Shown: positions 8,571 through 28,262 of the stretch, piece by piece
Position numbering within the stretch: position 1 is the first letter of the stretch
Layout of the letters: each line of letters starts with the position of its first letter
From: Planctomycetaceae bacterium
GTDB lineage: Bacteria > Planctomycetota > Planctomycetia > Planctomycetales > Planctomycetaceae
Assembly (NCBI GenBank): GCA_028291565.1
Contig: JAQGHT010000205.1
Coordinates: 1 to 35,171 of the forward strand
Direction of reading: 5' to 3'
DNA length: 35,171 bases
The notes under the pieces: model-generated
What the model was told of the DNA's origin: nothing
What the model saw: the letters and a program-made list of their open reading frames with translations, nothing else
The model's database searches: none
Made by a program: the position numbers and the translations under genes

Positions 8571-10412
8571 TTATTTCAGAATCTGCATCCACTGCAGCAT
8601 CTGCAAATAATTCGTGGCGGCACGGCTGCCGATTGAGGCCGCCAACCATTTTTCGGCCAGAATTGCCGGATCTTCCGCGAACCGCATTCCCTTGAGATCG
8701 GTCGTCGTGGAAATCGTGGACTGAGTCAACCCGTGGAGCAGCGACGCCGCTGTGGGGCGTAAGCTCGACTTCAGCCGCGCCGCATCGCGAACAGCACTGG
8801 TGACGAGCCCTTGCGGAATCGCGTGGCGCCCTCCCACCACAATGGCCCTGAGCCAGCGTTCCAGACTTTCATCGGAATTGGCCAGAGTGATCAACGGCGA
8901 ACTTTCGCCCAGCTCAATACTGACGGGGTGAGTTTGAGCTTTGGATAGCTGCGATCGAGTCACCTCTTCAAGCCCGATCGAAAGAACCGGACTCGCGTCA
9001 GACGGCAGCAGTCTGGGAGCTTCCGAATCGTCGGTTTCCGCCGGGGCGATCGCCAGGAGATTAATTCGTCCCGCGGAATTCAAATCGACCCGACCGACGC
9101 AACGCAGGGCCAATCCAGGAGCGCGAGACAGCATCGTCAGGCTGGCGCGAAAAGCCACCTGGTCGTCATCCAGTGTCAACGCCAGACGCAGAATTGCTCC
9201 TGAATCAATTATGCGAACGACCAGCTCCTGTCCTGAAAAACCGAGCACGTTCGCGGCAAAGAAAACCAGATCTGCTCCAGCTGGCTTAAGAAATTCGGAC
9301 CCATTTTGATTTGCGAAGACGCGTCGAATCTGTTCCACGAGTGGTGTCTTAAATCGCTGAGCGACCGGGGGAGCGTTCCAGCCTTGGCCTTCAATCGTGA
9401 CGGCGCGGGCAGATTCACCCCCTCCCAACCTCCCGTCGACAGACCGAGTCGCCTTTGAAATCAGCAGACATTTCCGGCTGAGATCGCGATGTGATAACGA
9501 TAACCCCGCGAGAGAAACACCGGACTGCCAGGCCTGGTTGATGCGGCTGGCATTCCCGGGTTGCACATCGCTCACCGTGCCGATCCAACCGTCATCTGCC
9601 ATCAACCACGTCACGACTCCGCCATACCCGCTACGCGTCAGAACCGGTTCACAGAACAGGCCGTGTAGCTTCAAACTGTTGACTGGCTCATAGCTGCGCC
9701 GAGCGATGCCGACCAGCTCGAGCGTCGCCCCCGCGGAATTGATGGCAGAGCGTATGACTCGCAGGCAGACTTCCAGAACGTCTCGGAAGTCGTTCTCAGC
9801 AGCCGCCGAAGTGAACTGATCGTCTCCATCACGCAAGAGTCTCAGGTTTGACAGCAGTCTGAGGCCACCCGCCGCAATCCGATGCAGGCCTTCTGATCGG
9901 CACTCGTGGATCGCCCGAAGCAGACGAGATTGCAAGACCGCCCCCGAGGCCCGCAGGCCAGAAGTCAATATCGCCGCACACGCTTCGTACATCTGACGAG
10001 CCGCCATCAGCTGGGATTCGGACAGCTCAATCTTTGCTGATCCAGGAGTCTCGTTAGAGTCGCTTTCTGACACTGACAGTTCCGTAGTGCCAGATGTGAC
10101 CGCACTGTCGTTGCCGGCCGCTTGTAAGTCGTCCACGGTCGCGATGTCGGCCACGTTCAACACGGCCAAAACATGAAAGCAGCGCGGTGACAACAGACAG
10201 CTGCATTGGACTTGGATCACATCAGTAATGGTCCCGGCCGGAATACGAACTTGCTCCTCACCGGCAGAAATTGTCCACTGCCCGTCGGCGTGCTCCCAGT
10301 TCCAGGAATCTGCGACACGCGGTTCACGATCCAGCTTCTTCTGTAGCCGTTCCGGAGCAGCAGTGATAATGGTCGCTAGTACGGCCGGAGCGATTGTCGG
10401 ACGTTGATTCAT
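8571..10412 (-). CDS. SWIM zinc-finger protein (YehQ-like)
   Basis: ORF 8571..10478; likely start MNQRPTIAPAVLATIITAAPERLQKKL at 10412, giving an ATGA overlap with the upstream VWA gene stop. SWIM pattern CxCxnCxH: VQCSCLLSPRCFHVLAVL. Confidence 0.82.
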   Translation of the reverse strand: MNQRPTIAPAVLATIITAAPERLQKKLDREPRVADSWNWEHADGQWTISAGEEQVRIPAGTITDVIQVQCSCLLSPRCFHVLAVLNVADIATVDDLQAAGNDSAVTSGTTELSVSESDSNETPGSAKIELSESQLMAARQMYEACAAILTSGLRASGAVLQSRLLRAIHECRSEGLHRIAAGGLRLLSNLRLLRDGDDQFTSAAAENDFRDVLEVCLRVIRSAINSAGATLELVGIARRSYEPVNSLKLHGLFCEPVLTRSGYGGVVTWLMADDGWIGTVSDVQPGNASRINQAWQSGVSLAGLSLSHRDLSRKCLLISKATRSVDGRLGGGESARAVTIEGQGWNAPPVAQRFKTPLVEQIRRVFANQNGSEFLKPAGADLVFFAANVLGFSGQELVVRIIDSGAILRLALTLDDDQVAFRASLTMLSRAPGLALRCVGRVDLNSAGRINLLAIAPAETDDSEAPRLLPSDASPVLSIGLEEVTRSQLSKAQTHPVSIELGESSPLITLANSDESLERWLRAIVVGGRHAIPQGLVTSAVRDAARLKSSLRPTAASLLHGLTQSTISTTTDLKGMRFAEDPAILAEKWLAASIGSRAATNYLQMLQWMQILK

Positions 10413-13400
10413 CGAATTTGTTCCCCGACCCAGCGTGCCAGTTCCGTTGGACTCAGCGCAGCCACAGGCATGCCGCATCCCGCCACTTGCGAAGCGATGC
10501 CCGTATGATAACGCGGCTTCCCGTCATCCGAGAGGGCCGCCAACCCTAAGGCTTTGGCTCCCGAATCGACGATCGCCTGAACCTCGGCCAACAGATCGCC
10601 GACGTGGCCACCTTCTTCAAAGTCGCTCACTAACAGGACAATTGTTCGCGACGGTACTTTCATTCGTTCGCGAGCGGCTTTCAGTCCCTTCGAAATGATC
10701 GTTCCGCCACCGACCTGCACTTCCATCAACATGGCCAGTGGATCCTCCACGTGGTTCGTAAAGTCAATGATTTCTGTGCTGAAGGCCAGGAATGTGACGC
10801 TCAACGCGGGCAGCGCCGCAAAGATCGCCGCCGTCAGCGCGCAGTAAATCACGGACGCTTCCATCGATCCTGAGACGTCGACAACATAGATCAGGTGCCA
10901 ATCCATCGTGCGGCGGACAGGCGAACGAAAGTAGAACTCTTCGGGGACGAGACGGTTGACCCCGTTTGCGTCGCGTTGGACCGTCTTGAGATTTGATAAG
11001 ACTGTGCGACGCAGATCGAGTCGCCGGTTTGGCCGGCGCGTCGGGCGTGGTGTTGAAAGCCCCATGAGGGCCGGCGCCATGCGAGTCGCCAACTCCTTAG
11101 CCAGTTCGTCTGTGATCCGCCGCGCGATATGCCTCAACTTCTCCGTCTGTGATTCCGGCAAACTTCCCTTCATCGATAAGACCGTCTGTAGTAACTCGAC
11201 AGACGGGCGAACCGCATCTTCGTTCATGACGGTTAACGCCGCTGCGCGCCCTTTTTCGACGGCGGTGCCCAGGACTTCCTCTCGGACTCGAGTTCCGAAT
11301 AACTCACCCAGTTCGTCGGCCCAGACTCGGGTGTTGGGCCAGGGAGCTTCGTCACCGGCGCCGCTGCCTCCGAGATTGCCTCGTGCGCCTTCACCAGATC
11401 CCTGTCCGTAGAGTTCGTCCAAGGCCCGGGCCGCTCGGCAGGCGGACTGTCCCATCGCTGGATCTTTGACACCCAGGATCAACCGCCAGCGGTCCAGCAA
11501 ATTCAGCTGGCGTTGCGGGTCGTCCACAATCGAACGCGGGATTTCGTCGCTTGGCAAACTGAGATCGTCCATCCAGCGCAAATCGGGCAGCAATTCGGCA
11601 ACCGCGGCGCGGGCGACTTGATCGGCATCAAACCACATTTTCTGAATCAATGGGTCGACTTCGGATGGTCGTGATTGAGACGAATTCTGAGGCAGCCTGC
11701 GCTGAATCTGTTGCAGCAACTGTTTCCGGGGCGCAGGACTCATCACATCAAAGCCGCCCCGTAATGCGGGCAGCCGTTCCAGGAAATCAGCGTCTGAAAA
11801 GATATCGATTCGGTCCTCGATCCCATCCAGACAATCGGGCTCCGATAGAAGTCTTGGTGCGATCAGAATCAATGCGCCTCTCAAGCGGCGCGTCAAATCG
11901 TGGCGCAGTTTCTCATCGATCGCGGAATCCACCCACGAACCGGACTGACTGACGAAATCCGTGGCGAGAGTATCGTTCAATATCAATCGACAGGCGAGCG
12001 ACGCTCCCTGCATGAGTGCAGAGCCGGACTGCGTGAACTGACGCAGGAAAAACTGGAGCTGACCCGCTTCCAGAGTGAACGCATCGTCCGACTGATGTTG
12101 AAACCAGAGTACCAGTTCCAACAGCGCCGTCACATCGGCTTCATCGTCCGAACCCGTCAACCCTCCAACTCGGGAAATGGCTGCCTGTAGCAGTGGCGTC
12201 GTGCTCAGGCCACCAGTCTCGGTGAGCGGTTGACAGAACGCGGGCAGGTAGTCGTCCTGAGGCAGGGGCAATCCCGGAATATGTCCGGAACAGATCCGAT
12301 CGACGAAATGCATGGCCTGCATCAATTGTGTCAGGGAGGCGGATCTCGGGAACTCGCCGAGCAACCAGCCCAAACCCTTCTGCACCAGGTCCGACAATCC
12401 ACAATTGGCAGCCTGCATCAACTGCTGCAACTGAGCTTCACCCCATTCGGTGACCGGCTTTTCCATCCCTGATAATCGCAAGAGGCCCTCGGCCGCCTGC
12501 CGCAACGTAGCTCCGCGAGTTCCCGCTAATGCGATCGTCGCGACGGTCGTGTGCTGCCACTGCACATCCCAGACCGACGTCAGACTTTCGCGATCACCAA
12601 CGCTGCCTGCATCGGCACGACTCGCATAGGGAATCTGGCACGCTTGCAGTTGTTCAAATACGACGACGCGAGCCCGATCCAGCCCGCTGCGCAGGGGATC
12701 GAGTCGCAATCGTTTTTCCTGTCCCAGGCTTTCTGGTCCTGGTAAGCGAAGTTGCCTGAGAATCGATTCCATGTGCGGCGCGAGACCGCACCGGGGCAAA
12801 TCGGCGGGGACGCTGCCGAACCGATTTCCCACGAGAATCGTTTGCATGGCGGAAGCGACTGCGCGTCCCAGCCCAAACAATTGCCCGCGCGTTAAACACA
12901 TCTGTAAAGATTCAATGAGTTCACTTCGTCCAGGTGCCGCCAAGCCACGTAAATGGGCGAGGTCCCGTGACATGCGGAGGACCTCGGTCCCATCGGCCGC
13001 ATTCATCGGGTGGCCGGCTTTGCGAAGTTCACGACACACAGCCACGATCAAGTCGGCAATGGCGCGATCACACTCGGCAATGGTCTGAGCTTCAAATGAC
13101 CGTTGATGCCACAACGGATCTCGGATTCCCGCGGGGTATCCCGAGCGTTCATCCAATTGCTGAAACGAATAAGGAGTCATGGCCGTGACAAATCGATCGG
13201 GAACTTTCGAACGACCGGCTTCGGGAGATCCCTCTGCTTCAGGCTGCCACCAGTGGCGCGGAGTCGGCAGCAATGCCGCGGCGTGATAGGCACCGATGAC
13301 CGCGACAGCTCGCTTTGTTCCGCATGCGGCAATCCGGGATCTCATATAGGCTTCGCGACGGAGATCGTAATCGCAGGGCTCTGCGTCATTCCATCGCATG

Positions 13401-13948
13401 GCCCAGCCAAACATCAGTCCCGAGCGCCGAATACTCTCGGCTGTGCAACCCGCCGCCGTCGATTCGACCAACCGTTCCCACAACTGCCCGGAATCGGCAG
13501 ATTCGGTCCGTTGCATTAATTGAGCCAGTAATCCACGACTGTGCTCCGCACGAAATTCAGACCGTTCCGTGCGTTGACCGATCGGCAGATCAAATGCTTC
13601 AACGGGAACTCCATGCTCCGACGCCCAGCGAATAGCGGCAAGTTCCGGAGAGAAATCCGCAAACGGGTAGAACGACAGATGCTGTCCCTGTTCATCGCAC
13701 CCGGACAGTGCAATGGGAGCCTTGGTTTCCGCATGTGCGAGCCAGGGAATCCACTCAGAGAATTCGGGCGGCAACTCCAGCAGCAGAATTTCTGGTGCGA
13801 AAGCCTCTAAGAGCTCAGGGATGACCTTCGCCAGAGCTGCAGAGTGATGTCTGACGCCAATCAAAAACGGAGTCTGGCACGCGGCGAGCTCGGTGAGAAC
13901 CGCTTCGGCATGGAGATCAGCAATTGGAAGAGTCACAGATTCAGGCAT
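10409..13948 (-). CDS. Fused DUF5682-like (TraB/ChaN/EreA-like fold?) and C-terminal VWA (CoxE-like) protein; YehM+YehP-like fusion
   Basis: ORF 10409..14137; likely start MPESVTLPIADLHAEAVLTEL at 13948, since the upstream extension runs into the REP repeat. N-terminus FLIGVRHHSAALAKVIPELLEAFAPEILLLELPPEF...FADFSPELAAIRWASEHGVPVEAFDLP...AVAVIGAYHAAALLP. C-terminal VWA with MIDAS DVSGSM in MDWHLIYVVDVSGSMEASVIYCALTAAIFAALP, plus LLVSDFEEGG. Confidence 0.85.
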   Translation of the reverse strand: MPESVTLPIADLHAEAVLTELAACQTPFLIGVRHHSAALAKVIPELLEAFAPEILLLELPPEFSEWIPWLAHAETKAPIALSGCDEQGQHLSFYPFADFSPELAAIRWASEHGVPVEAFDLPIGQRTERSEFRAEHSRGLLAQLMQRTESADSGQLWERLVESTAAGCTAESIRRSGLMFGWAMRWNDAEPCDYDLRREAYMRSRIAACGTKRAVAVIGAYHAAALLPTPRHWWQPEAEGSPEAGRSKVPDRFVTAMTPYSFQQLDERSGYPAGIRDPLWHQRSFEAQTIAECDRAIADLIVAVCRELRKAGHPMNAADGTEVLRMSRDLAHLRGLAAPGRSELIESLQMCLTRGQLFGLGRAVASAMQTILVGNRFGSVPADLPRCGLAPHMESILRQLRLPGPESLGQEKRLRLDPLRSGLDRARVVVFEQLQACQIPYASRADAGSVGDRESLTSVWDVQWQHTTVATIALAGTRGATLRQAAEGLLRLSGMEKPVTEWGEAQLQQLMQAANCGLSDLVQKGLGWLLGEFPRSASLTQLMQAMHFVDRICSGHIPGLPLPQDDYLPAFCQPLTETGGLSTTPLLQAAISRVGGLTGSDDEADVTALLELVLWFQHQSDDAFTLEAGQLQFFLRQFTQSGSALMQGASLACRLILNDTLATDFVSQSGSWVDSAIDEKLRHDLTRRLRGALILIAPRLLSEPDCLDGIEDRIDIFSDADFLERLPALRGGFDVMSPAPRKQLLQQIQRRLPQNSSQSRPSEVDPLIQKMWFDADQVARAAVAELLPDLRWMDDLSLPSDEIPRSIVDDPQRQLNLLDRWRLILGVKDPAMGQSACRAARALDELYGQGSGEGARGNLGGSGAGDEAPWPNTRVWADELGELFGTRVREEVLGTAVEKGRAAALTVMNEDAVRPSVELLQTVLSMKGSLPESQTEKLRHIARRITDELAKELATRMAPALMGLSTPRPTRRPNRRLDLRRTVLSNLKTVQRDANGVNRLVPEEFYFRSPVRRTMDWHLIYVVDVSGSMEASVIYCALTAAIFAALPALSVTFLAFSTEIIDFTNHVEDPLAMLMEVQVGGGTIISKGLKAARERMKVPSRTIVLLVSDFEEGGHVGDLLAEVQAIVDSGAKALGLAALSDDGKPRYHTGIASQVAGCGMPVAALSPTELARWVGEQIR

Positions 13949-14130
13949 TGAAATTGAGCCGAAGTTCGAAGGGACTTTTTTAGAGGAACAATTTAGACGC
14001 GCGGTGTCGCCACAAGATCCAAAAATTGACGAATTTGATTCCCGCCTTAACGATCGGTTCCGACCTCGAGCACATATCGATTCAGCCGTCACCAAACAAG
14101 CACACTTGCCGACAGATCTTCCTGATTTCT

Positions 14131-14221
14131 TCCCCAAAGGGGATGCGTCAATAGCCCAGGGTTGCCGCGTCGCGGCTACCCTGGGTAATCATATGTTAAC
14201 GTCTTCAACCCCAACGGGGTT
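14131..14221 (-). repeat. REP-type repeat unit A (inverted relative to B and C)
   Basis: tccccaaaggggatgcgtcaatagcccagggttgccgcgtcgcggctaccctgggt...aaccccaacggggtt; reverse complement matches units B and C. Confidence 0.9.
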
Positions 14222-14320
14222 GCGCTGGGTCGATATCGTTCGCCCCCGCATCTATATTTAACCGAAATACCCATTGTCGTTTGCTGCAATCAAATTGACC
14301 GTGATCGCTCACACGGGCAC

Positions 14321-14413
14321 AACCCCGTTGGGGTTGGATACACGTGTCCCGTCAAAACCCAGGGTAGCCACTACGCGGCAACCCTGGGCTATTGACGTAT
14401 CCCCGTTGGGGAT
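14321..14413 (+). repeat. REP-type repeat unit B
   Basis: caaccccgttggggttggatacacgtgtcccgtcaaaacccagggtagccactacgcggcaaccctgggctattgacgtatccccgttgggga: three consecutive hairpins. Confidence 0.92.
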
Positions 14414-14498
14414 AAATCCTCGGATTCGTGACCTCTCTTGAATTCGCGTTATCGTACCTCATCTGATCGCGCGCCATCATTGGATCGTGCACCAACTT

Positions 14499-14954
14499 TC
14501 AATCCCAAACATAACGTTCGTCCCATTCCAGATGATGTCGACTCAATAATGCTCGAAATTCATCCTGAAACGTCTGCTTCCGATGGTGCTCTTCCTGATT
14601 GAGAATATATTCTTTGACTTGTTCGACGTTGGATTGACTCACGGAAAATGCGCCGTAGCCGCTTTGCCATTCAAAGGCTTTGTATTCGATGCCGAGCTCC
14701 TTGAGCCACGAATTGGATACGCGTTTCAGTTCTTTGACCCAGTCTGCAATCGAAATCGTCCGACCGAGAACCCCCAATATGTGGACGTGATCGTCAACTC
14801 CACCAACGACAATTGGGGAACAGCCGAGGTTTTTCGAAACGCCTCCCATGAAATTGTAAAGTTCGCTGCGAATCTTGAGGTCACTCAGAAATGGTCGCCG
14901 ATCTTTGGTTGAGAAAACAAGGTGCACGTAGATGGCGGCTAACGATTGAGGCAT
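14499..14954 (-). CDS. REP-associated tyrosine transposase (RAYT; IS200-like Y1 transposase)
   Basis: MPQSLAAIYVHLVFSTKDRRPFLSDLKIRSELYNFMGGVSKNLGCSPIVVGGVDDHVHILGVLGRTISIADWVKELKRVSNSWLKELG...FEWQSGYGAFSVSQSNVEQVKEYILNQEEHHRKQTFQDEF: HUH-type motif (DHVHIL) and Y1_Tnp C-terminal Tyr region (VEQVKEYILNQEEHH). ORF track start at 15149 reads through repeat unit C; internal start at 14954 preferred. Confidence 0.93.
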   Translation of the reverse strand: MPQSLAAIYVHLVFSTKDRRPFLSDLKIRSELYNFMGGVSKNLGCSPIVVGGVDDHVHILGVLGRTISIADWVKELKRVSNSWLKELGIEYKAFEWQSGYGAFSVSQSNVEQVKEYILNQEEHHRKQTFQDEFRALLSRHHLEWDERYVWD

Positions 14955-14997
14955 TTTCAGGTCCCCAGTGCACGGGTTTGTTCGGAAACAAGAGGCG

Positions 14998-15093
14998 CAA
15001 CCCCCGATGGGGTTGAATATATTTGTCCCATTGAAACCCAGGGTAGCCGCTACGCGGCAACCCTGGGCTATTGACGTATCCCCGTTGGGGATA
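14998..15093 (+). repeat. REP-type repeat unit C
   Basis: caacccccgatggggttgaatatatttgtcccattgaaacccagggtagccgctacgcggcaaccctgggctattgacgtatccccgttgggga, near-identical to unit B in its second and third hairpins. Confidence 0.92.
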
Positions 15094-15180
15094 ATGAAAG
15101 TTCGAAGGCCGTTGACCGGTGTATCACATGGCGACTGATTGAAACTCAACGAGATGGCGCCTGCCTAAACCATCGCAAAT

Positions 15181-16389
15181 TCACTGCATCAAGTCGCGCC
15201 TCAATTCCAGCAGCCGTTGCCAATTCCTCGATTTCTCCGCACGTCGCTTGACGGCGCTATCCCAATAGGCGAGCAGACGGGCTCGGTCTTGCGCGTCGTC
15301 TTTCAATACCGCTCCCAAAAGCAGTCCGGGAATCAGACTGAGCGGATCTTTCTGCGATGGAAAATAGGCAACTTGTCGGCCAATCGACGCCGCAATTGCG
15401 ACAGCTTCCGCAGTGCTCATTACCGAACCTGGTTTTTCCACCGACCAGCCCTCGACAGTCCGCCCTGCGCGAAGATCTCGGAACGCGGTCACCAAAATGT
15501 CGAGCAACCCTTCATCGACAGGGATCTGCACATTCGAAGCCTCCAGTAATGCGGTCGCCTGCCGCCGTACCAGCTCCACTTCCCGGTGATGTTCAGCAAT
15601 GGGTGCAATGACTTCGAAATTGAACCGGCGTTTTAGAGCCGCGGACATTTCTGAGACGCCCTTGTCCCTTAAATTGGCGGTCGCGATGATATTGAATCCC
15701 GGCAGCGCGAAGACGCTTCCAATCTCCCCCTGCAGCTCGGGAATCATCAGCCGGCGTTCTGACATCTGAGAAATCAAGGCGTCCTGAACCTCGGGCAGGC
15801 AGCGGGTCACTTCTTCGACTCTAACAATTTGCCCGAGTTTCATCCCTGTCATCATGGGTGACGGCACGAGTGCGGCTTCGCCTGGCCCTTGAGCCAGCAG
15901 AATAGCGTAGTTCCACGAATAGCGCAGATGCTCTTCTGTCGAACCAGCGGTTCCCTGGATCGTCAAGGAACTCGTCCCGGAAATCCCTGCCGCGAGGAGT
16001 TCGGAGAGCATTGATTTCGCCGTCCCGGGCTCACCCACCAGCATCAGGCCTCGTTCGCCGGCCAGTGTGACGACGCAACGCTCGACCAGAGAACGATCAC
16101 CGACGAATTTTTCCGTGATCACGAGCGAGTTGGGAAGGTTCTCTTTATCCTGCCCCTGCGCCAGCCGCAACGGTTCGTTCCGGCTCCCACAGATAAAAGT
16201 GACGACCGCTTGCGGTGACAGAGTCCAACCTTCGGGGCGTTTTGTCGAATCCCAGGACCGCAAAAACTCCAGTTCCTGAGCATAACGCTCTTCAGCTGGC
16301 GGCGACTGCTTACGCCGCTGGTCTGAACTCTTCTCCGATGTCGCAGGCGATGCCGCGGCTTCTTCGATTTTTGCGACTCGTTTGGCCAT
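15181..16389 (-). CDS. MoxR-family AAA+ ATPase (YehL-like)
   Basis: LMLVGEPGTAKSMLSELLAAGI (Walker A), GQIVRVEEVTRCLPEVQDALISQMSERR (Walker B region), PGFNIIATANLRDKGVSEMSAALKRRFNFEVI (sensor 1 and arginine region), typical MoxR. Confidence 0.93.
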   Translation of the reverse strand: MAKRVAKIEEAAASPATSEKSSDQRRKQSPPAEERYAQELEFLRSWDSTKRPEGWTLSPQAVVTFICGSRNEPLRLAQGQDKENLPNSLVITEKFVGDRSLVERCVVTLAGERGLMLVGEPGTAKSMLSELLAAGISGTSSLTIQGTAGSTEEHLRYSWNYAILLAQGPGEAALVPSPMMTGMKLGQIVRVEEVTRCLPEVQDALISQMSERRLMIPELQGEIGSVFALPGFNIIATANLRDKGVSEMSAALKRRFNFEVIAPIAEHHREVELVRRQATALLEASNVQIPVDEGLLDILVTAFRDLRAGRTVEGWSVEKPGSVMSTAEAVAIAASIGRQVAYFPSQKDPLSLIPGLLLGAVLKDDAQDRARLLAYWDSAVKRRAEKSRNWQRLLELRRDLMQ

Positions 16390-16645
16390 GCGGAAACTCT
16401 TTTCGAATTGACTTTGTTCGCAATCAGAAACTCAAATGACTGTTTGCGCGGATCGAATGATGGTGTTGCTCAGGACGGGTCCTTTGGTTGTGGCAATTGT
16501 TCCTGGCGATTCACCCCAATAGTACCGCGCCCCAGTTCGAAGCGATCGGTAATTCCGGAACCGGAGGTTGACACGTTTCGGCTGATTGCGTCAGTAACTT
16601 TTGCCTTTTGCCGCCCCGATAATCCTGGCGATCGCAACGAGCTTG

Positions 16646-16663
16646 ACGGACAGGAATGTCCGT
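16646..16663. other. Short hairpin immediately downstream of giant gene 1
   Basis: acggaca-ggaa-tgtccgt: 7-bp stem with 4-nt loop, ending 14 nt beyond the stop codon of the 16677..21692 CDS. Function unknown; no clear poly-T tract. Confidence 0.4.
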
Positions 16664-16676
16664 CCTACGGGTTACG

Positions 16677-19600: not shown

Positions 19601-21692
19601 TGTAGTCAAAGGATCGCATCCACCAATGTGTGCCATCGCAAATCACGGAATCGTTGTCTCGCAGACCTGTCAGCCCCTGGCTGCCGCGATGCACAATCTT
19701 GTCCCCAATGAAAGTCCCTCCGCCAGGCACGTCAACGGAGATGCCACTCAGTTCAGATGCAAAGTGGACGTATTCGGGTTCACCGGGATGGGGATCACTG
19801 TTCCAGAAACTCGCGAATTGATAACCCTTACCAGACCAGACCAGCAGATCGCCATCAATGAATCTGAGACATTTCAGTTCATGGCCTTTGGGAAGTTTCA
19901 ATTCAGTCTCGTGAACAATGTCTTCCCCTTTCAAAACAACCGCTTTCAGACGGTCGGTCAGAATCACATAGGGAAATTGTCCGAAAACGAGGGGCGGTGA
20001 TTTGTTTGCGGCAATGAAGTTCTCGAACACTCGTTCCAACGCCGGCCACCCGTATTCGTCCATCAGACCGCCGCAGATCGTGCGCTCGATTGCCGGCTGA
20101 ATGTTGGCCCCTTTTAACTGTTCGAGGGCCTCGGGAAATTCCTCGAAAATTGCTCGGCGTGTCTTATTTTCCAGGAGCTGTAATGAGGACTCCGCCCCGG
20201 GCAACCCACCACTTGTCAAGTCGCCCACCAGTGAACTCAGCCATTTGCGGCGCGCATCGCGCAACGCGATCTTTCCTGCCGCGACGGCTTCAAACGCGGA
20301 CTCGCCGGCCGCCGCCTGCAGCGCATTGTGAATGGACTGAGTGAACCGGCCATCTGCGACAACATGAACTGGATCGCGTGGACGATTCCGTAGTTTGTCT
20401 GCGAGATCAACTGGTACCGCCCAATGTTTCAGGTCAAAAAAGATGCCTGCTGGAACTTCCAGGAAAGGGACTTTCAATTCCAGGGCCAGATCGATGAGAT
20501 CCACATCTGCCGAAACGATGTGATTCCAGCGATTCTTCGAATACAAGTCGACCGGCACGTTGTCTTTTCGCAAACGGGGCGCCATGGCTTCGAGAATGTC
20601 GAAGATCTTCTGCCGGGGACGGTCATAGTTGCGTGTCAGGCGCGTCAACCAGGCAGCTGGTCCGCCATTCGGCTGGGCTTCGTCCGCCACATTATCTTTC
20701 CAGGCATTGGCCAGAATACCCCATGAGTCGAGATGGTCCAACCACGGCCACAGGTCATCATTCCTCCAGCTCGACGTCTGAGGAATCATGTTCAGCAACA
20801 CGCCTGCAACATGGTTGTTTTGAACCACGAGTTGCGAGATCGCTTTCGACGCGCTGACCCAAAACCCCATCGACGCCCGACTGATTGCCGGCGAATCGAT
20901 GATCTCCAGGAGTACCGAGCGAATTTCCTCATCCTGATTGAGCCCCGTGGCTTTCATCAACGGTTGCAGGTCTTTCAGCATCGACGTCCAGGGCGGCATA
21001 CCCCCCAATGTCCGGCGAACACACAGTTCCCGGAAGAACTTCCAGGCCGCTTTGGGGTCATGAGTCGACAACAGTTCTTTGCCGTACTCGGTTAACGCCT
21101 TGATGCTGACCGCGCCCGCGAGTGCGAACTCCAGAAACGCATCCTGCCGTAACGATTCGTCGACCTTCAGTGCATGCACTTTCTCGGCTTCGCGCGCTTT
21201 GCCGAAAGCTCGCGATCCATACGTCGCGTTATCGAGTGCGATGAACTCGCGCCCGGCTTGCTCCCAGAATGAGGGCAGGAAATGGGCGACACTTTTGCCC
21301 AGTCGCTTGGAGATTTCCGTGAATTCCTCATAGCCAAAGCCTGGCTTGGCCTTCGATCGGCGAACGGCTTTCTTAAACTCCTTGACCAGTTCCAGAGCAT
21401 ACCGCGCGTGCGGCGGATCATTGACGACGGCCCAGCCGGGAAAGCCCAAAGCTTGCCGCTGCCGCTTGGCAATCGGACCGGTGACCTCGGGCGGAGTGCA
21501 CCCGAGAAACTCCATCGTCAGATCTTCACCCTCAGCCAGATTGTCCGCGATCAGTCGTACGATGGGTCGGTTTCCGAGCGCCGCGTGCCGGTACAATCGT
21601 GCGCTGATGTTGTCGACCGTCGATTCATTCTTCAGCTTTTCTTTCGCGGACAAATACGCGCCCGCGGCGATGAGGTCTTCCGGCTTAATCAT
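16677..21692 (-). CDS. Giant uncharacterised protein (1671 aa), paralog 1 of tandem pair
   Basis: Uninterrupted ORF MIKPEDLIAAGAYLSAKEKLKNESTVDNISARLYRH...IVDGDVPRYEEVK; homologous along its length to the neighbouring ORF 21749..26767. Confidence 0.93.
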   Translation of the reverse strand: MIKPEDLIAAGAYLSAKEKLKNESTVDNISARLYRHAALGNRPIVRLIADNLAEGEDLTMEFLGCTPPEVTGPIAKRQRQALGFPGWAVVNDPPHARYALELVKEFKKAVRRSKAKPGFGYEEFTEISKRLGKSVAHFLPSFWEQAGREFIALDNATYGSRAFGKAREAEKVHALKVDESLRQDAFLEFALAGAVSIKALTEYGKELLSTHDPKAAWKFFRELCVRRTLGGMPPWTSMLKDLQPLMKATGLNQDEEIRSVLLEIIDSPAISRASMGFWVSASKAISQLVVQNNHVAGVLLNMIPQTSSWRNDDLWPWLDHLDSWGILANAWKDNVADEAQPNGGPAAWLTRLTRNYDRPRQKIFDILEAMAPRLRKDNVPVDLYSKNRWNHIVSADVDLIDLALELKVPFLEVPAGIFFDLKHWAVPVDLADKLRNRPRDPVHVVADGRFTQSIHNALQAAAGESAFEAVAAGKIALRDARRKWLSSLVGDLTSGGLPGAESSLQLLENKTRRAIFEEFPEALEQLKGANIQPAIERTICGGLMDEYGWPALERVFENFIAANKSPPLVFGQFPYVILTDRLKAVVLKGEDIVHETELKLPKGHELKCLRFIDGDLLVWSGKGYQFASFWNSDPHPGEPEYVHFASELSGISVDVPGGGTFIGDKIVHRGSQGLTGLRDNDSVICDGTHWWMRSFDYNSVTTDHEYSIHEIDPVTGKKGRKSMPSFFEDFVRDNSQLDIAHSSLLPVGDSFPNSPLGVHAGLAGFRIRSSPNGTRRIEGVDGRAWESTSGREVSFLLKQPATETLLPLEQIKLHSASKSFTIWDPSGAYEISAVAGDGDSYSRGQVTGVSPIYLHEFQIRDLAASKKLRSISDAEVGALLQAEQQDFDNFTSGNVADLEANAPANTPKKTPVTKIMQKLTLRDEALHSPLLDDAIRKLLGKEVHTRLLTGLRGITIRAGQKIRQLAKLVETRSAEPVADKSAVDVAAADAAATPYLASIKYGFRSLPHLSFMESAGLAAKFFTGQSAGVLFPQQWLDHLRTLTKGVAQRIWSAYCSDPKDGRWIPFAEGWSQLAFHQLPGSFRIFIAATSDNQFLDAEKAVVKAEAAEAGHVAYLDWGIPYIGKRNRFLIDRNYRGFEVIEYSADGEFESISGLTEQPGSEVIIPPPVWSADALRSFIGLAKLNPVNIPPAALLKSLAEEVKASVAEVALVWFGLPGFDDYSVNFMPTPLREGCKLKTKECSAAKEALKALPANLLQSLVRAVIAGEPADLWEQPPTKVADRIRAAWHGEKPNRLPLSAEWMEKLSESIGYGVNKNQLFEALNTPLTHPLLSDQGVWKFGKVQNWTEPVCHDDRFKFNESVLQAVGNCIALLAYGLPVGDPARTKIVEVYQATLKALANPGLLLSAGGRYDSGTGKGPKLSELLESIVGKPQKQDSIDVADDGCVVVGVDENRLRITFRPARATTHTEIERVSNQLNALLGTADQESLEPSSVMKHFRVVRSDDFQALVNRIKQTPVPPGNYETNPLHSAPDIVKQVTRKLALSEDAAVYYLQLITLADPTDKNVTLWNGWTTASIKKHGSELLEKKLVLEASRTRAGRKHFLPGGWEDLKAPHLPLETWKIPHFQLSRDYLQRPVPPFGRIVPLEPVHALFAKAWKRIVDGDVPRYEEVK

Positions 21693-21748
21693 GATGTGTC
21701 ATCCCTGTTTGCGCTGCTGGATAAATGGCTGACAAAGGACCAGGCGTG

Positions 21749-24700
21749 TCATTTCACCTCTTCATATCGTGGCACGTCCCCGTCGACGATCCGCTTCCAG
21801 GCCTTGGCAAACAACATCGATACCGGCTGCAGCGGCAGGACGCGTCCCAGCGGTGGAGTTGCCCGCTGATAGGCATCGCGGGTCATCTGGAACAGAGGCA
21901 TTTTCCAGGTCTCCAGGGGGAGGTGCGGCGACTTCAGATCTTCCCAACCGCCTGGCAGAAAGAATTTGCGTCCCGCTCGCGAACGTGTCGCTTCAAGGAC
22001 CACTTTCTTTTCAATCAGTTCCTGCGCGATCTTTTTCAACGCGGCCGTCGTCCATCCATTCCAAACCGTGATATTCTTGTCGGTCGGATCGGGCAGGGCG
22101 AGCAACTGCAGATAATAGGCCGCTGCGTTTTCACTCACTTTGAGCTTCTTGGCGACCTGTTGGACCAGCTCTGGAACTGACAGCAGCGGATTCGTTTCGT
22201 AACTGCCAGCTGGTACTGGCGTCTCTCTAACACGCTTGCCGAGTTCCTCGAATTCCGTGGAGTGAATGAGCCGCAGTTGGTTGATCAGTTGTATTGAATC
22301 ACCGTCGGCTTCGTCATCATCATCGGACTGACCAGCAATCAAGGCTCCTAATTGATTCGCCAATCGCTCCCATTGAGCGGTTGTTTTCAATGCTGCCGGA
22401 CGGAACGCGACGCGGAACCACTGCGAATCATTTACGACAACCACGACACCGTCATCGACCATCTGGAACGTCTCGTGCGGTTTCAGTTGACCGACTGAGG
22501 ACTGCACTAGCTTTTCGTATGCCGTTTTCTTCTTGGGCTCGTACTCGTAATGAGCTCCCGCAGTCAGCAGCAACCCTGGATTGGCGAGCGCCCTCTTAAG
22601 CGCCGGAATCACATCGCTGGCCTTTTCTCGGGCGGGGTCGCCTACTGGCAGGCCGTAGATCAACAATGCGACGCTGGGCAGGGCGGCCGTCAAAACGACT
22701 TCGCCGAACTCGCAGCCATTGTCGTCACACACAAGTTGAACGTTGTCATCCTTCATCCCGAAGGACCAGTTCCCCTGATGGCTGAATAACGAGCTGTTTA
22801 ATGGAGAATTCAGCGCCTCGAGCAGGCGGGACTTCACAATTCCGTATCCCATCGCGTCGGTCAGTTTCTCTACCCACTCGGGCGAGAGCGGAATTCGCTG
22901 GTTCTGATCGTCCTTCCATGCAGCTGTGAGCCGCGCCGCGACCTTCGCGGGAGGAGCTTCCCACAATTCGGCAGGATCTCCGGTCAAAACGGCTTGAACG
23001 AGGTTCCGCAGCTTCGCAGGTGGCATCGCCTGCAGAGATTTCTTCGCGGCCGAGCACTCCTTGGCCTTCAGTTTGCATGCGTCACGCAGGTGGGCCGGCA
23101 TGAAGTTAGCCGAGTAATTATCAATATTAGGCAATCCAAACCAGACCAGTGCCACTTCGGCGACACTCGCCTTGACTTCACTGGCAACCGAATTCAACAG
23201 GTCAACCGCAGGGATGTTGATGGGATTCGCTTGTGCCAGCTGCGCGAATGTACGCAACTCCTTACCGGTCCAGATTGCCGGAGGGCTGACCGACACCGTA
23301 TGGGGCTGTTCAGTCAGGTCGGGAATAGATTCGAAGTTTCCGTCAGGTGAGTATTCCAGAACTTCAAAGTCGCCGTAACTCTTGCGGATCAGGAAGCGGC
23401 TGGACCGGCCTGCATAAGGCACCACCCAGGACCACTCCTCATCTTCATCATCATCGTCGTCGTCGTCATCATTTTCGTCCTCCAAGGAACGGATCGCATT
23501 CAACGCGGCGTATTCCGCTTCCATAAACTTTTCATCCGTAGATTCACCATCGAATCGGCGGAACCGACCCGGCAGGTTCTGGAACGGTAGATCGCTCCAG
23601 ATCTCGGCGAACGGGATCCATTTCTTGTCATTCGGATCCGTACAGTATTCAGACCAAAGTCGCTGTGGAAGCCCTTCGGAGAGGGCACGCAGATGATCGA
23701 ACCAAACTTCCGGAAAGTGCACACTCGATAATTCCCCATTGAAGAAACGCGAGACGTGCTCAATGGATGACAGGAACGAAACGTCGGGTAGTCGCTCAAA
23801 GCCATAACTGAGCGTCGCAAGAAATGGCTCGACCGCAATTTCCGCCTCGGTCAGCGAACCGTCCACGGAGTTCGAGTCCGATTCCGCCGAGCGTTGCGCG
23901 ACAATCTTTGCGAATTGGCGCGATGTCTGCCCAGCCTGAATCACAACGCCTCGCAGTCCCTTCAGCAACCGCGGGTGAACGCCAGCCCCCAGCAGTTTGT
24001 CAATCGCCGCATCCAGCGACGGGCAATGGATCGAGGGATCTCGTTGCGTACTCGGCGGTGATTGTGGATCAGACTGCGGAGTCGTCAACTTGCCAGATTT
24101 GAATGCCTCATAATCCTGCTCTTCGGCATCCAGCAGTGTCTGTGTCTGCTTTTTCGTAATGGCCCGCAACTTTTTCGAAGCGGCCAGATCTCGGAATTGG
24201 AAAGCGTTCAGAAAGATGGGTGGTAACAAGCCAACCTGGCCAGAACTGTATCCGCTGCCATTACTGATCACGGACAGTTCCATTTCCCCAGTCGAATCCC
24301 ATAACCGGAAGCCGGCATCGGAACTATGGAGACCCATCGATTCCACGGGCAGATAGGCATCAGTTCCAGCCTGATGCAGCAAACCAGTGAATTGCGCGGC
24401 ATGCGGCACCTCAATGGATCGGCCGTCGATGCCTTCAATTCGATGCAGGCCTGTGGCGTTTGATCGCACTCGGTATCCGAGCAATCCGTCCTGGCTCCCG
24501 AACAGCGAACTGCTAAAGAGCTCGCCCAGCGGCAACAAGGACGACCTGGAGTGATTCAACGTCGCGTCATCCTGAAGAAAATCTTCGAAGAACGACGGCA
24601 TCGATTGCCGGCCGCGCTTGCCCGCGACCGGATCGAATTCATGCGTTGAAATCGTCGATTCGTAGGTCGTCATATCGTATTTCTGAACCTGTGACCACCA

Positions 24701-26767
24701 GTGCTTTCCATCGGAAACAATCGCCTCAGAAGCGGCGAGCGACATCACCTCCCGATCTCCGCGATGGACAAGTTTTTCGCCGATCAGCGTACCGCCGCCG
24801 GCCATTTCCAATGCGATGCCGAAGATTTGACTCGAAAAATAGGCATAGCCCGACTGGCCGGATTGGGGATCACTGTTCCAGAAATTCGTCATCTGGTAGT
24901 TTGCGGCTGCCCACACCAGCAGATCGCCATCGAGATACATCAGGTACTCGAGTTTGTGTCCTTTCGGCAACTTCAATTCCGCTTCAAAGACAATCTGATC
25001 GGCGCGCAACACGACCGCTTTCAGGCTATCTGTCACGATCAGGTAGGGGAAATGCCCAAAGAACCGCGGCGGGCGCTGGCCTGCCGCGACGAATGATTCA
25101 TACACACTTTCCAGTGCGGGCCAACCGTACTCATCGATCAAGCCGCCCGCGATCGTGCGCGTTACGGCCGACACCAGATCAGCTTGACGCAAGAGCGCCA
25201 GTTGATCTGGAAATTCCCGGAAGATGGCTCGCTGAGTCTTCTGGTCCAGCGCTAATAAAGACGCTTCGGCCCGCGGCAATGCCGCGTTCGAGACCCCGGC
25301 AACATGTGCAGCCAACCAATCACGGCGCGCCTGCTGCAGCCCCTGTTTGCCTGTTGCCGCCAATTCGAAATTGGAATCGCCAGCGGCCTCCTGGACCGCG
25401 GTACGAATCAAGGGACCAAATCGCTTGTCGGCCACAAGATGCACGGGGTCTCGAGGACGATTCCGAGCCCCTTTTTCGGCGTCTGCCGGTGTCGCCCAAT
25501 CTTCCAGATCAAATGTCGTCTGGGATGACGGATCCGAAACCGGAATCCCCAATTCCAGTGCCAGATCCAATACGTCGGCATCGGCCACGACACGACCTCG
25601 CCAGCCGGGTTTGGGATACAAATTCACGGGCACGTTGTCTTTTTTCAAGACGGGCGCCAGATGTTCCAGAAGGTCGAAGATCCTTTGCCGGGGACGATTG
25701 AAGCTCTGGATAATTCGAGACAACCAGGCGGCCGCCCCACCGCTCGGACGTGCTTCGTCCGCGACTCCGGGCTTCCAGGCGTTCGCCAGGATCCCCCAGG
25801 ACTCCAGATGTTCCAGCCAGGGCCAGATGTCTTCTTTCCCCCAGCCCGCGGTTTGCGGAATCATACTGAGCAGCACGCCCGCCACATGATCATTTTTCTT
25901 GACGAGCTGCGCAATGGCTTTCGACGCGCTGTCCCAAAATCCCATCGCCGCGCGGCTGATGGCGGGAGAATCGATGACTTCCGCCAGGATGACTTGGATC
26001 TCGTGCTCCTGATCGAGCTCTGCCGCCTTCATGAGAGGTTGCAGATCCTTCAACATCGCTGGCCAGGGGGGCATGCCACCCAGAATGCGGCGTACGCAGA
26101 GCTCGCGAAAGAACGCCCACGCGGCCTTGGGGTCATGCGTCGACAGCAACTCTTTCCCGTACTCGGTGAGGGCCTTGATACTGACCGCCCCCGCCAATGC
26201 GAATTCCAGGAATGCATCCTGGCGCGTCGACTCGTCCACCTTCAGGGCATGGACCTTCTCCGCTTCCCGTGCCTTGCCAAACGCTCGTGAAGCATAAGTG
26301 GAATTGTCGAATGCGATAAACTCACGCCCGACTTGCTCCCAGAAGGAAGGCAGGAAGTGCGCCACGCTGCTGCCGAGTTGCTTCGAGGTTTCGACGAACT
26401 CGTCATAGCCGTGACCGGGCTTGGCCTTCGACCGACGAACGGCCTTCTTGAACCCTTTGACCAGTTCCAGAGCGTACCGTGCATGTTTCGGATCGTTGAC
26501 CAGGGCCCAACCGGGAAATCCCAGGGCCTGTCGTTGCCGCCGGGCGACCGGACCAATCACTTCCGGCGGCGTAAACCCGAGGAACTCCAGGGTCAGGTCT
26601 TCACCTTCCGCCAGGTTGTCCGCGGTCAGTCGCACGACCGGGCGGTCCCCCAAAGCGGGGTGGCGGTACACACGAGCACTGATGTTATCGACAGCCGATT
26701 CATTCGACAGTTTTTCTTTTGTCGAAAGGAACGCACCAGCGGCAATCAGTTCATCAGCCTTAACCAT
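21749..26767 (-). CDS. Giant uncharacterised protein (1672 aa), paralog 2 of tandem pair
   Basis: Uninterrupted ORF MVKADELIAAGAFLSTKEKLSNESAVDNISARVYRH...IVDGDVPRYEEVK; contains an Asp-rich run DENDDDDDDDDEDEEW. Confidence 0.93.
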   Translation of the reverse strand: MVKADELIAAGAFLSTKEKLSNESAVDNISARVYRHPALGDRPVVRLTADNLAEGEDLTLEFLGFTPPEVIGPVARRQRQALGFPGWALVNDPKHARYALELVKGFKKAVRRSKAKPGHGYDEFVETSKQLGSSVAHFLPSFWEQVGREFIAFDNSTYASRAFGKAREAEKVHALKVDESTRQDAFLEFALAGAVSIKALTEYGKELLSTHDPKAAWAFFRELCVRRILGGMPPWPAMLKDLQPLMKAAELDQEHEIQVILAEVIDSPAISRAAMGFWDSASKAIAQLVKKNDHVAGVLLSMIPQTAGWGKEDIWPWLEHLESWGILANAWKPGVADEARPSGGAAAWLSRIIQSFNRPRQRIFDLLEHLAPVLKKDNVPVNLYPKPGWRGRVVADADVLDLALELGIPVSDPSSQTTFDLEDWATPADAEKGARNRPRDPVHLVADKRFGPLIRTAVQEAAGDSNFELAATGKQGLQQARRDWLAAHVAGVSNAALPRAEASLLALDQKTQRAIFREFPDQLALLRQADLVSAVTRTIAGGLIDEYGWPALESVYESFVAAGQRPPRFFGHFPYLIVTDSLKAVVLRADQIVFEAELKLPKGHKLEYLMYLDGDLLVWAAANYQMTNFWNSDPQSGQSGYAYFSSQIFGIALEMAGGGTLIGEKLVHRGDREVMSLAASEAIVSDGKHWWSQVQKYDMTTYESTISTHEFDPVAGKRGRQSMPSFFEDFLQDDATLNHSRSSLLPLGELFSSSLFGSQDGLLGYRVRSNATGLHRIEGIDGRSIEVPHAAQFTGLLHQAGTDAYLPVESMGLHSSDAGFRLWDSTGEMELSVISNGSGYSSGQVGLLPPIFLNAFQFRDLAASKKLRAITKKQTQTLLDAEEQDYEAFKSGKLTTPQSDPQSPPSTQRDPSIHCPSLDAAIDKLLGAGVHPRLLKGLRGVVIQAGQTSRQFAKIVAQRSAESDSNSVDGSLTEAEIAVEPFLATLSYGFERLPDVSFLSSIEHVSRFFNGELSSVHFPEVWFDHLRALSEGLPQRLWSEYCTDPNDKKWIPFAEIWSDLPFQNLPGRFRRFDGESTDEKFMEAEYAALNAIRSLEDENDDDDDDDDEDEEWSWVVPYAGRSSRFLIRKSYGDFEVLEYSPDGNFESIPDLTEQPHTVSVSPPAIWTGKELRTFAQLAQANPINIPAVDLLNSVASEVKASVAEVALVWFGLPNIDNYSANFMPAHLRDACKLKAKECSAAKKSLQAMPPAKLRNLVQAVLTGDPAELWEAPPAKVAARLTAAWKDDQNQRIPLSPEWVEKLTDAMGYGIVKSRLLEALNSPLNSSLFSHQGNWSFGMKDDNVQLVCDDNGCEFGEVVLTAALPSVALLIYGLPVGDPAREKASDVIPALKRALANPGLLLTAGAHYEYEPKKKTAYEKLVQSSVGQLKPHETFQMVDDGVVVVVNDSQWFRVAFRPAALKTTAQWERLANQLGALIAGQSDDDDEADGDSIQLINQLRLIHSTEFEELGKRVRETPVPAGSYETNPLLSVPELVQQVAKKLKVSENAAAYYLQLLALPDPTDKNITVWNGWTTAALKKIAQELIEKKVVLEATRSRAGRKFFLPGGWEDLKSPHLPLETWKMPLFQMTRDAYQRATPPLGRVLPLQPVSMLFAKAWKRIVDGDVPRYEEVK

Positions 26768-26856
26768 GATATCGCATCCCGGGTTTCAAGTGAGCGATGT
26801 TTGAAGCGAAGAGATGTCTTGGAAAACTTCCGCGTACTGCCTCACCAAATCTCAAA

Positions 26857-27203
26857 CGCCACCGGGCTTGCCCCGGTGGGTCCACGGCCTCTGCACTACT
26901 TCTTCTTCCTTCGGGCCCCGGAGAGGGCGAGGTTCCCACCGAGCCTTGGCGAGCTTTACAGTGGTTTAACCTTGAGTGTCCGGTTTGCGGTGATGAATCG
27001 TGCCACTGCTTTAATGCTGTACTCGGCGTTCAAGCATTGCTTTTCTCCGCGCCGTAAGCGCTGCTTGACGACCGAGTACAGTCGTAAAGCAGTGGCACAT
27101 CACCGGAAGGCCCAAGGTTAAACCGCTATAGCTCGGCGTCCGTCGGAGGCTGTACTTGGGTCGACCTGCGGCCGCGTTAGGCTCGGTCGGAACTTCGCCC
27201 TCC
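26857..27203. repeat. Composite nested palindromic repeat
   Basis: 26857-26900 matches the 6159-6202 half-element. Outer arms 26922-26955 (agagggcgaggttcccaccgagccttggcgagct) and 27131-27203 (gctcggcgtccg...gaggct...ggctcggtcggaacttcgccctccc). Inner arms 26963-27036 (ggtttaacctt...gtgccactgcttt...tgtactcggcgttcaagca) and 27062-27123 (tgcttgacgaccgagtaca...aaagcagtggcac...aaggttaaacc). Confidence 0.85.
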
Positions 27204-27323
27204 CAATATGCTGTCGCCGCCAGTTCAACAAACGTGGCATCTGACATTGGAACCGGATGCTAGCCCGTTCCGGCTGATTTCACGAATGAACAGGAGCCTC
27301 ACGTCGACCATCGACCACGCGCT

Positions 27324-28262
27324 TCAATTCGCCTCTTCGTTCTTCTCGACAACACGTTTGGCATAGATCGCCGCCGCCATTCGCATCCCTTCCGAGAACG
27401 CCACAGGCCCCACATCTTTCACGGGCATGGTGTGCTCTTTGGCGTCGGTAAAGATCAAGTCGGCCGTCCAGGCTTCACTTTCCGGATCGTCGGCTCCGAT
27501 CCAGAACCGAGCTTCGACCTGAGTTCCATGTTCCCAGACGGGACAACAGGCATAGCCGCCACTGACGCGATAGCCCAGTCGGCGACAGAGACCCAGCACG
27601 TGGTTCAGCTGGGCGAACTTACCCCCACTGAAGTCGTTGATGCTGCTTCCCGCCAACTGTTCTGCCGTTCGAGCCCACGTCTGTCGGAACAGTTGATCCA
27701 GCTTTTGCTGCACACTCAATTCGATCGTCAATTGCCGGAAGTCGTTCAATTCCTTAAGCAGGATGGGATGCGGAATTGCGATGGCGTCAACCTTCAGCCA
27801 CTGTGTTTCGCCATCCAGATCAATGACACCCACACCTTTCTTGTCGTCGACGTTCCGCAGGAAGCCGGCTTCGCTCTGACTGAGCTCCCCCTTTTTGACC
27901 GAACAGACGACCGAATTCGTCAGGATCGACTGCCAGGCCGGGTCGGGCCAGACGGCGATCAGCAGTTCCCGAGGAACTGGCAGAGATCGCAGCATCCACA
28001 ATTCGATCGACGCCCGGCATTCCTGTTCGTGCTCATCAAGCCAATCTCGCAGGCTGGTCAGCTGCTGAGCCTGTTCCGTTTCCTTAAGCCACGGAGGCAA
28101 GGTTGCCAGCTTCGCGCCCTTCGGGTTGCGGGCCACCAGTTTCCCGTCGAGCAGTCCGACGGAATAGTCCTTTTCCGAAGAAATCCAGTGGACTTCAGGT
28201 TCCGCCGTCACTACAGACGGAGCTTCCTTCTTGGATTTGGCTGCCATATTTCGCCGTTCCAA
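27324..28262 (-). CDS. Stand-alone DUF4132-like protein (resembles the C-terminal region of MolR/YehI-type proteins)
   Basis: 312 aa; LPVPRELLIAVWPDPAWQSILTN, GVIDLDGETQWL, IPHPILLKELNDFRQLTIELSVQQKLDQLFRQTWARTAEQ, FSGGKFAQLNHVLGLCRRLGYRV, DVGPVAFSEGMRMAAAIYAKRV. The QLFR...RRLGY...VGPVAFSEGMR order matches my recollection of DUF4132. Alternative start MAAKSKK at 28247. Confidence 0.65.
   Translation of the reverse strand: MERRNMAAKSKKEAPSVVTAEPEVHWISSEKDYSVGLLDGKLVARNPKGAKLATLPPWLKETEQAQQLTSLRDWLDEHEQECRASIELWMLRSLPVPRELLIAVWPDPAWQSILTNSVVCSVKKGELSQSEAGFLRNVDDKKGVGVIDLDGETQWLKVDAIAIPHPILLKELNDFRQLTIELSVQQKLDQLFRQTWARTAEQLAGSSINDFSGGKFAQLNHVLGLCRRLGYRVSGGYACCPVWEHGTQVEARFWIGADDPESEAWTADLIFTDAKEHTMPVKDVGPVAFSEGMRMAAAIYAKRVVEKNEEAN

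Follow-up and report, generated by a model that had tools for sequence, protein, structure and literature searches.

A MoxR/VWA gene cluster bearing a giant protein, kept in order across several bacterial phyla

Do a MoxR-type ATPase, a VWA-domain protein, two giant proteins and the genes beside them on a planctomycete contig form one system and, if so, on what would its motor act? MoxR/VWA motors are widespread, and clients are known for only a few of them. The window, that is, the whole stretch of DNA that was analysed (35,171 nucleotides), had been given a preliminary description from its sequence alone, which proposed a system of six co-directional genes.

Layout of the locus

The window covers the entire contig C1072, which belongs to a planctomycete genome of 10.1 Mb (1263 contigs, 85% complete) whose nearest named relatives are Planctomycetaceae MAGs. 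The genes occupy the minus strand from 8571 to 28262 and are transcribed in the order DUF4132, giant 2, giant 1, MoxR, transposase, DUF5682-VWA, SWIM (Table 1). All six genes named in the preliminary description were confirmed as open reading frames (ORFs) in one direction at the coordinates listed; a seventh co-directional ORF, encoding the transposase, had been overlooked. The "tandem giant proteins" are likewise real ORFs of about 1670 aa, but their paralogy had not been recognised: they are 57% identical over the whole length. The likely ATG of the SWIM gene overlaps the stop codon of the DUF5682-VWA gene as ATGA, which suggests translational coupling. It should be mentioned that a 936-aa protein adjoining the locus (31775-34585) starts with a GYF_2 domain (E=1.4e-12) and may contain a coiled coil.

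Table 1. Features of the locus, in order of transcription
Feature	Coordinates	Strand	Remarks
Short DUF4132 protein	27324..28262	-	Likely ATG 28247; PF13569 E=9e-27
Mini inverted-repeat element, DUF4132-giant gap	26923..27202		Passenger, outside the proposed machine
Giant 2, 1672 aa	21749..26767	-	Tandem paralogue of giant 1
Giant 1, 1671 aa	16677..21692	-	No Pfam/NCBIfam match
MoxR-type AAA+ ATPase	15181..16389	-	AAA_5 E=4e-34; Walker A GEPGTAKS
Y1/IS200-type REP-associated tyrosine transposase	ORF 14499..15149	-	ATG 14954, 151 aa; PF01797 E=2.5e-21
REP-like palindromic repeats around transposase	14131-14222, 14320-14415, 15002-15094		Insertion, outside the proposed machine
DUF5682-VWA_CoxE fusion	10409..14137	-	Likely ATG 13948, 1179 aa; PF18934 E=2e-145, PF05762 E=2e-53
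SWIM-finger protein	8571..10478	-	Likely ATG 10412; PF04434 sub-threshold E=0.025

Two of the gaps between the genes hold mobile elements. The gap between the MoxR and DUF5682 genes contains a REP-associated tyrosine transposase element, composed of a Y1 transposase gene and inverted REP palindromes that are repeated genome-wide. The transposase matches NF033573 (E=3.5e-14) and, weakly, the REP transposase model NF047646. The three REP-like copies repeat one another in direct and inverted orientation (93 nt at 90%), and the palindrome has 38 matches in the genome, in most cases as inverted pairs. A copy of the transposase, 72% identical, is at the same site in a same-genus genome; in the related locus L025, MoxR and DUF5682 are only about 0.1 kb apart. 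The 556-bp gap between DUF4132 and giant 2 contains a MITE-like mini element with nested inverted repeats, for which 69 matches were listed across the genome, both orientations counted. The corresponding gap in the same-genus genome is 151 bp. Both elements are passengers.

Gene order and giant copy number across genomes

Genomes of several phyla share a five-gene, operon-like cluster, which keeps its gene order and is passed on as a unit. Relatives of the giant were not found by a single-sequence peptide scan, whereas a profile search based on an alignment yielded 254 of them in the GTDB species genomes (about 85,000 species). The best 80 of these were kept as loci, and their neighbourhoods were surveyed with HMMs, the loci with enough room serving as denominators. 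The holders are Planctomycetota, Myxococcota, Actinomycetota, one Riflebacteria MAG and others, and tblastn located the giant on Streptomyces plasmids. Of 70 loci, 67 have DUF4132 as the gene immediately upstream of the giant, and in 47 of 53 MoxR, DUF5682-VWA and SWIM follow downstream in this order; in two of the six downstream exceptions (L030 and L072), the motor genes are close by and ordered, on the opposite strand. The giant-DUF4132 pair occurs without MoxR close by at L010, L017, L019 and L078, so that the pair seems able to act without an adjacent motor.

Since dozens of genomes show this order independently, the locus is not a chance arrangement, and the earlier view of the six genes as one system is upheld. 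The preliminary description had also named an outcome that would speak against it, namely that the giants do not recur beside MoxR, VWA and SWIM genes elsewhere; this was sought in the 80 loci and not found. The tree of the giants follows the phyla, with four changes among four groups, against a mean of 15.9 after shuffling. The pairwise distances of all six parts are correlated, with rho of 0.81-0.94 against permutation maxima of 0.30-0.54, a signal that shared species history can produce as well as co-function. No additional gene recurs across phyla in the flanks of the surveyed loci, and the system therefore looks closed at five genes.

A single giant is usual, and the two giants of the window are a tandem duplication specific to their lineage. 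The single giant of the same-genus genome is the orthologue of giant 1, and giant 2 branches before the split between these two. This branching order indicates that the window's pair is older than the split from the same-genus genome. Independent tandem giants are present at L025 (two), L084 (four) and L067.

Several variants were seen besides. At the Actinocorallia populi locus (L084:838-22843), three of the four giants are in tandem, a second DUF4132 gene lies between the third and the fourth, and MoxR is downstream. In Nonomuraea gerenzanensis (L019:11086-15981), one 1631-aa ORF fuses DUF4132 and a giant-like region, with no MoxR nearby. A second, more divergent giant subfamily, whose match starts at about profile position 80-124, occurs in Streptomyces (G110, G116, G124 and others); it is possibly the standalone type of L009.

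Predicted features of the proteins

The giants form a large protein family without a Pfam or NCBIfam model: neither giant had a match in the versions searched, and a scan of the C-terminal half of 58 homologues gave no consistent family. Conservation peaks in the N-terminal 250 and the C-terminal 150 residues, and neither a hypervariable module nor a domain swap was seen along the alignment of the homologues. AlphaFold2 models of the two halves, built on 58-row alignments, were confident, with pLDDT values of 89.9 (N-terminal) and 91.1 (C-terminal). In the model of giant 1, a small mixed N-terminal domain is followed by a helical solenoid (residues ~93-560) and a beta-propeller-like domain (~565-845) with about five four-stranded blades. 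The blades matched WD40-type propellers locally in Foldseek, with low overall TM-scores (0.2-0.3). On these local matches, the blade number is provisional and closure of the propeller putative. For the C-terminal half, Foldseek gave no structural match (best E of 0.09 in PDB and 0.11 in viral models); weak winged-helix-like matches (RovA, RepL) lie within this half. A sequence search of PDB with the giant and SWIM profiles gave no meaningful match. Kinship of the giant halves to each other or to DUF4132 was also considered, and profile-profile comparison showed no relation.

The motor proteins retain the residues expected of their families. The MoxR P-loop is GxPGTAKS in 76 of 76 homologues, and its Walker A (GEPGTAKS), sensor 1 with its asparagine (TANLRD) and arginine motif with the RR finger (KRRFNFE) are conserved. 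The MIDAS of the VWA_CoxE domain (DxSxS-T-D) is intact, with DVSGSM, GGGT and SDFEE conserved. In the DUF5682 part (11528-13879), GxRHH, E, SPE, D, RE..M and GxxH are invariant in DUF5682 of both the giant type and the Yeh type, the latter named after the E. coli yeh genes; these residues suggest a catalytic or metal-binding domain. The SWIM assignment was accepted despite its E-value because all 51 aligned homologues retain the same four zinc ligands (CxCx5CxH). Outside the finger, this protein has no family match; it is 32% identical over 636 aa to the product of the gene at the same position in Streptomyces atratus. The DUF4132 protein is 40% identical over 291 aa to DUF4132 of the same S. 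atratus operon, and its profile matches the C-terminal part of YehI with 97% probability.

A proposed machine, its alternatives and its relatives

It seems somewhat probable that the genes specify a single conserved MoxR/VWA remodelling machine, a giant-bearing form of the Yeh type, that acts on a giant-DUF4132 complex. Gene order, the distance correlation, the DUF5682-VWA and Nonomuraea DUF4132-giant fusions, the ATGA overlap, the conserved motifs, the predicted fold and the lack of any further recurrent flanking gene were counted in its support. Counted against it were the giant-DUF4132 pairs with no MoxR close by, the low TM-scores of the propeller matches and the share that species history may have in the distance correlation. 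The MoxR ring of NorQ-NorD is plugged by the VWA domain, an arrangement that its authors propose for the whole class (PMC9976466). By this precedent, MoxR would form a ring on which the VWA domain would dock, bringing the fused DUF5682 to the ring. The giant, with its solenoid and propeller, would serve together with DUF4132 as client or assembly platform, which the ring might load, open or rearrange. The SWIM protein may provide a zinc-dependent contact with nucleic acid or protein. The extra giant of the window would be a duplicated client subunit and no new component. Among the roles earlier suggested for the giants, substrate or scaffold fits their fold and conservation, whereas that of effector is unsupported. 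More tentatively, the cluster could represent an undescribed class of MoxR-vWA NTP-driven machine found in several phyla, with a solenoid/propeller scaffold of ~1600-1700 aa, possibly with a new fold in its C-terminal half, and with DUF5682 as a motor-coupled enzyme.

A part in biological conflict, also suggested in the preliminary description, is unlikely. The locus would then be a MoxR-vWA ternary system directed against phages or other bacteria, and the giant its sensor or effector. Its scattered occurrence, in 36 of 81 Streptomyces species and in 3 of 60 relatives of the source genome, and the recurrent tandem duplication of the giant would suit such a role. So would its likeness to the ternary systems described by Kaur et al. 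2020 (VMAP, iSTAND, FtsH and beta-propeller types), which combine MoxR and vWA with a large third component and are found, like the locus, chiefly in lineages that are multicellular or developmental (Actinomycetota, Myxococcota, Planctomycetota); the GXXXTAKS P-loop variant, common to the FtsH and beta-propeller types, is present in the window (PMC7159879). However, the locus has no VMAP, iSTAND or FtsH, and the variable effector domains carried by ternary systems have no counterpart in the giant, whose ends are most conserved and show no swap. In the beta-propeller type, the vWA protein has a C-terminal propeller and the third component has TPR and propeller with a variable N-terminus (PMC7159879), whereas here VWA is C-terminal in its own protein and the giant, although it has a solenoid and a propeller-like domain, is most conserved at its N-terminus. 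SWIM, DUF4132 and the yeh genes are not mentioned in that work (PMC7159879). Also against conflict, PADLOC gave only a chance-level E=0.02 for the five non-giant proteins scanned, no defence neighbour recurs in the flanks, the phage records searched contain no giant, and the giants follow the phyla in their tree.

The DUF5682 motif set of two GX2H motifs and acidic residues, invariant across both types, resembles the layout of the Tiki/EreA superfamily. This would suit a machine for the maturation of a cofactor or an enzyme, with DUF5682 as a metal-dependent hydrolase and the giant as its target or regulator; moreover, MoxR/VWA pairs insert metals, as in NorQD (PMC9976466). Such a machine is nevertheless considered quite unlikely. 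As a candidate relative of the erythromycin esterases, DUF5682 did not reach significance in profile comparison (probability 0.2-0.6%), although the RE..M...GxxH region does line up. Against PDB, its profile gave armadillo-like matches to the C-terminal part only and none to the N-terminal part. A search for TraB family members in this class, meant as a comparison set, gave nothing above the family cut-off. A DNA-damage or chromosome-stress machine is very unlikely. The DUF4132 protein DRA0166 of Deinococcus radiodurans is DdrO/IrrE-controlled and mitomycin-induced (PMC8533742), molR is listed among the E. coli SOS genes (PMC3978071), and the SWIM finger and the winged-helix-like matches in the giant could point to DNA. 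However, DRA0166, a putative relative of the short DUF4132 type, is not presented as part of a MoxR/SWIM operon (PMC8533742), and 81 regions upstream of the DUF4132 gene contained scattered loose matches and no consistent LexA-type box.

The Yeh type, to which the preferred reading assigns the giant-bearing machine, is that of the E. coli genes yehI-yehK-yehL-yehM-yehP-yehQ. These encode, in the order seen in the window, DUF4132, MoxR, DUF5682, VWA_CoxE and SWIM, with DUF4132 upstream, and YehL is 44% identical to the window's MoxR. The likeness in gene content to yehI and yehL-yehM-yehP-yehQ had been pointed out beforehand and holds, with five domain families in common. The E. coli genes differ in having no giant, in a YehI of 1210 aa with a long N-terminal region in place of the 312-aa DUF4132 protein, and in separate genes for DUF5682 and VWA. 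Two added giants and a separate DUF4132 protein had been given as what distinguishes the window; the separate protein is real, but a single giant is the rule. The idea that the DUF4132 part was split off a giant shared with YehI was abandoned: homology of the giant to the N-terminal ~950 residues of YehI was undetectable in profile-profile comparison (probabilities of at most 8%). DUF5682 and VWA form a single ORF in 58 giant-type loci and are separate in the Yeh-type loci examined. In Streptomyces scabiei, one DUF5682 gene is in a long ORF of fused size and another in a short ORF, so that both types can coexist in one genome.

A plasmid operon of S. atratus (OHV24_RS03055-RS03075) is gene for gene the same system. 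It differs from the window in having one giant and no transposase insertion, and is annotated, not characterised; its genes are labelled "DUF4132", "DNA-binding protein" (the giant), "AAA family ATPase", "DUF5682" and "hypothetical" (SWIM). The SWIM-DUF5691-MoxR-DUF5682-VWA loci of Rhizobium, Methylosinus, Deinococcus and Hymenobacter share MoxR, DUF5682 and VWA with the window; a SWIM gene is also shared, except that the Hymenobacter record has none annotated. In these loci, in contrast, DUF5691 replaces both the giant and DUF4132; DUF5682 and VWA are unfused, and SWIM comes first. A further arrangement, MoxR-DUF5682-DUF4132-VWA-SWIM, was observed on a conjugative plasmid of Sinorhizobium sp. 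RAC02 (L104:3393-13881). NorQ-NorD, RavA-ViaA and CbbQ-CbbO have other clients and are not known to include DUF5682, DUF4132, SWIM or a giant. With the window they share a VWA protein as the partner of MoxR, which forms a ring in them (PMC9976466).

In the open-access literature, to which the search was confined, no paper naming DUF5682 or the giant was found, and the literature searched held no biochemical or genetic data on any member of the system. The Yeh type may be mentioned in older surveys of the genes around MoxR and SWIM proteins. Because DUF5682 and VWA are fused and the giant shows no detectable kinship to the N-terminal part of YehI, the cluster is placed beside the Yeh system as a sister type and not as a copy of it. 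A likely client and cofactors are packaged with the motor in one cluster, in manipulable genera (Streptomyces, Micromonospora), and the role of Yeh-type MoxR systems becomes directly testable through giant-bearing loci.
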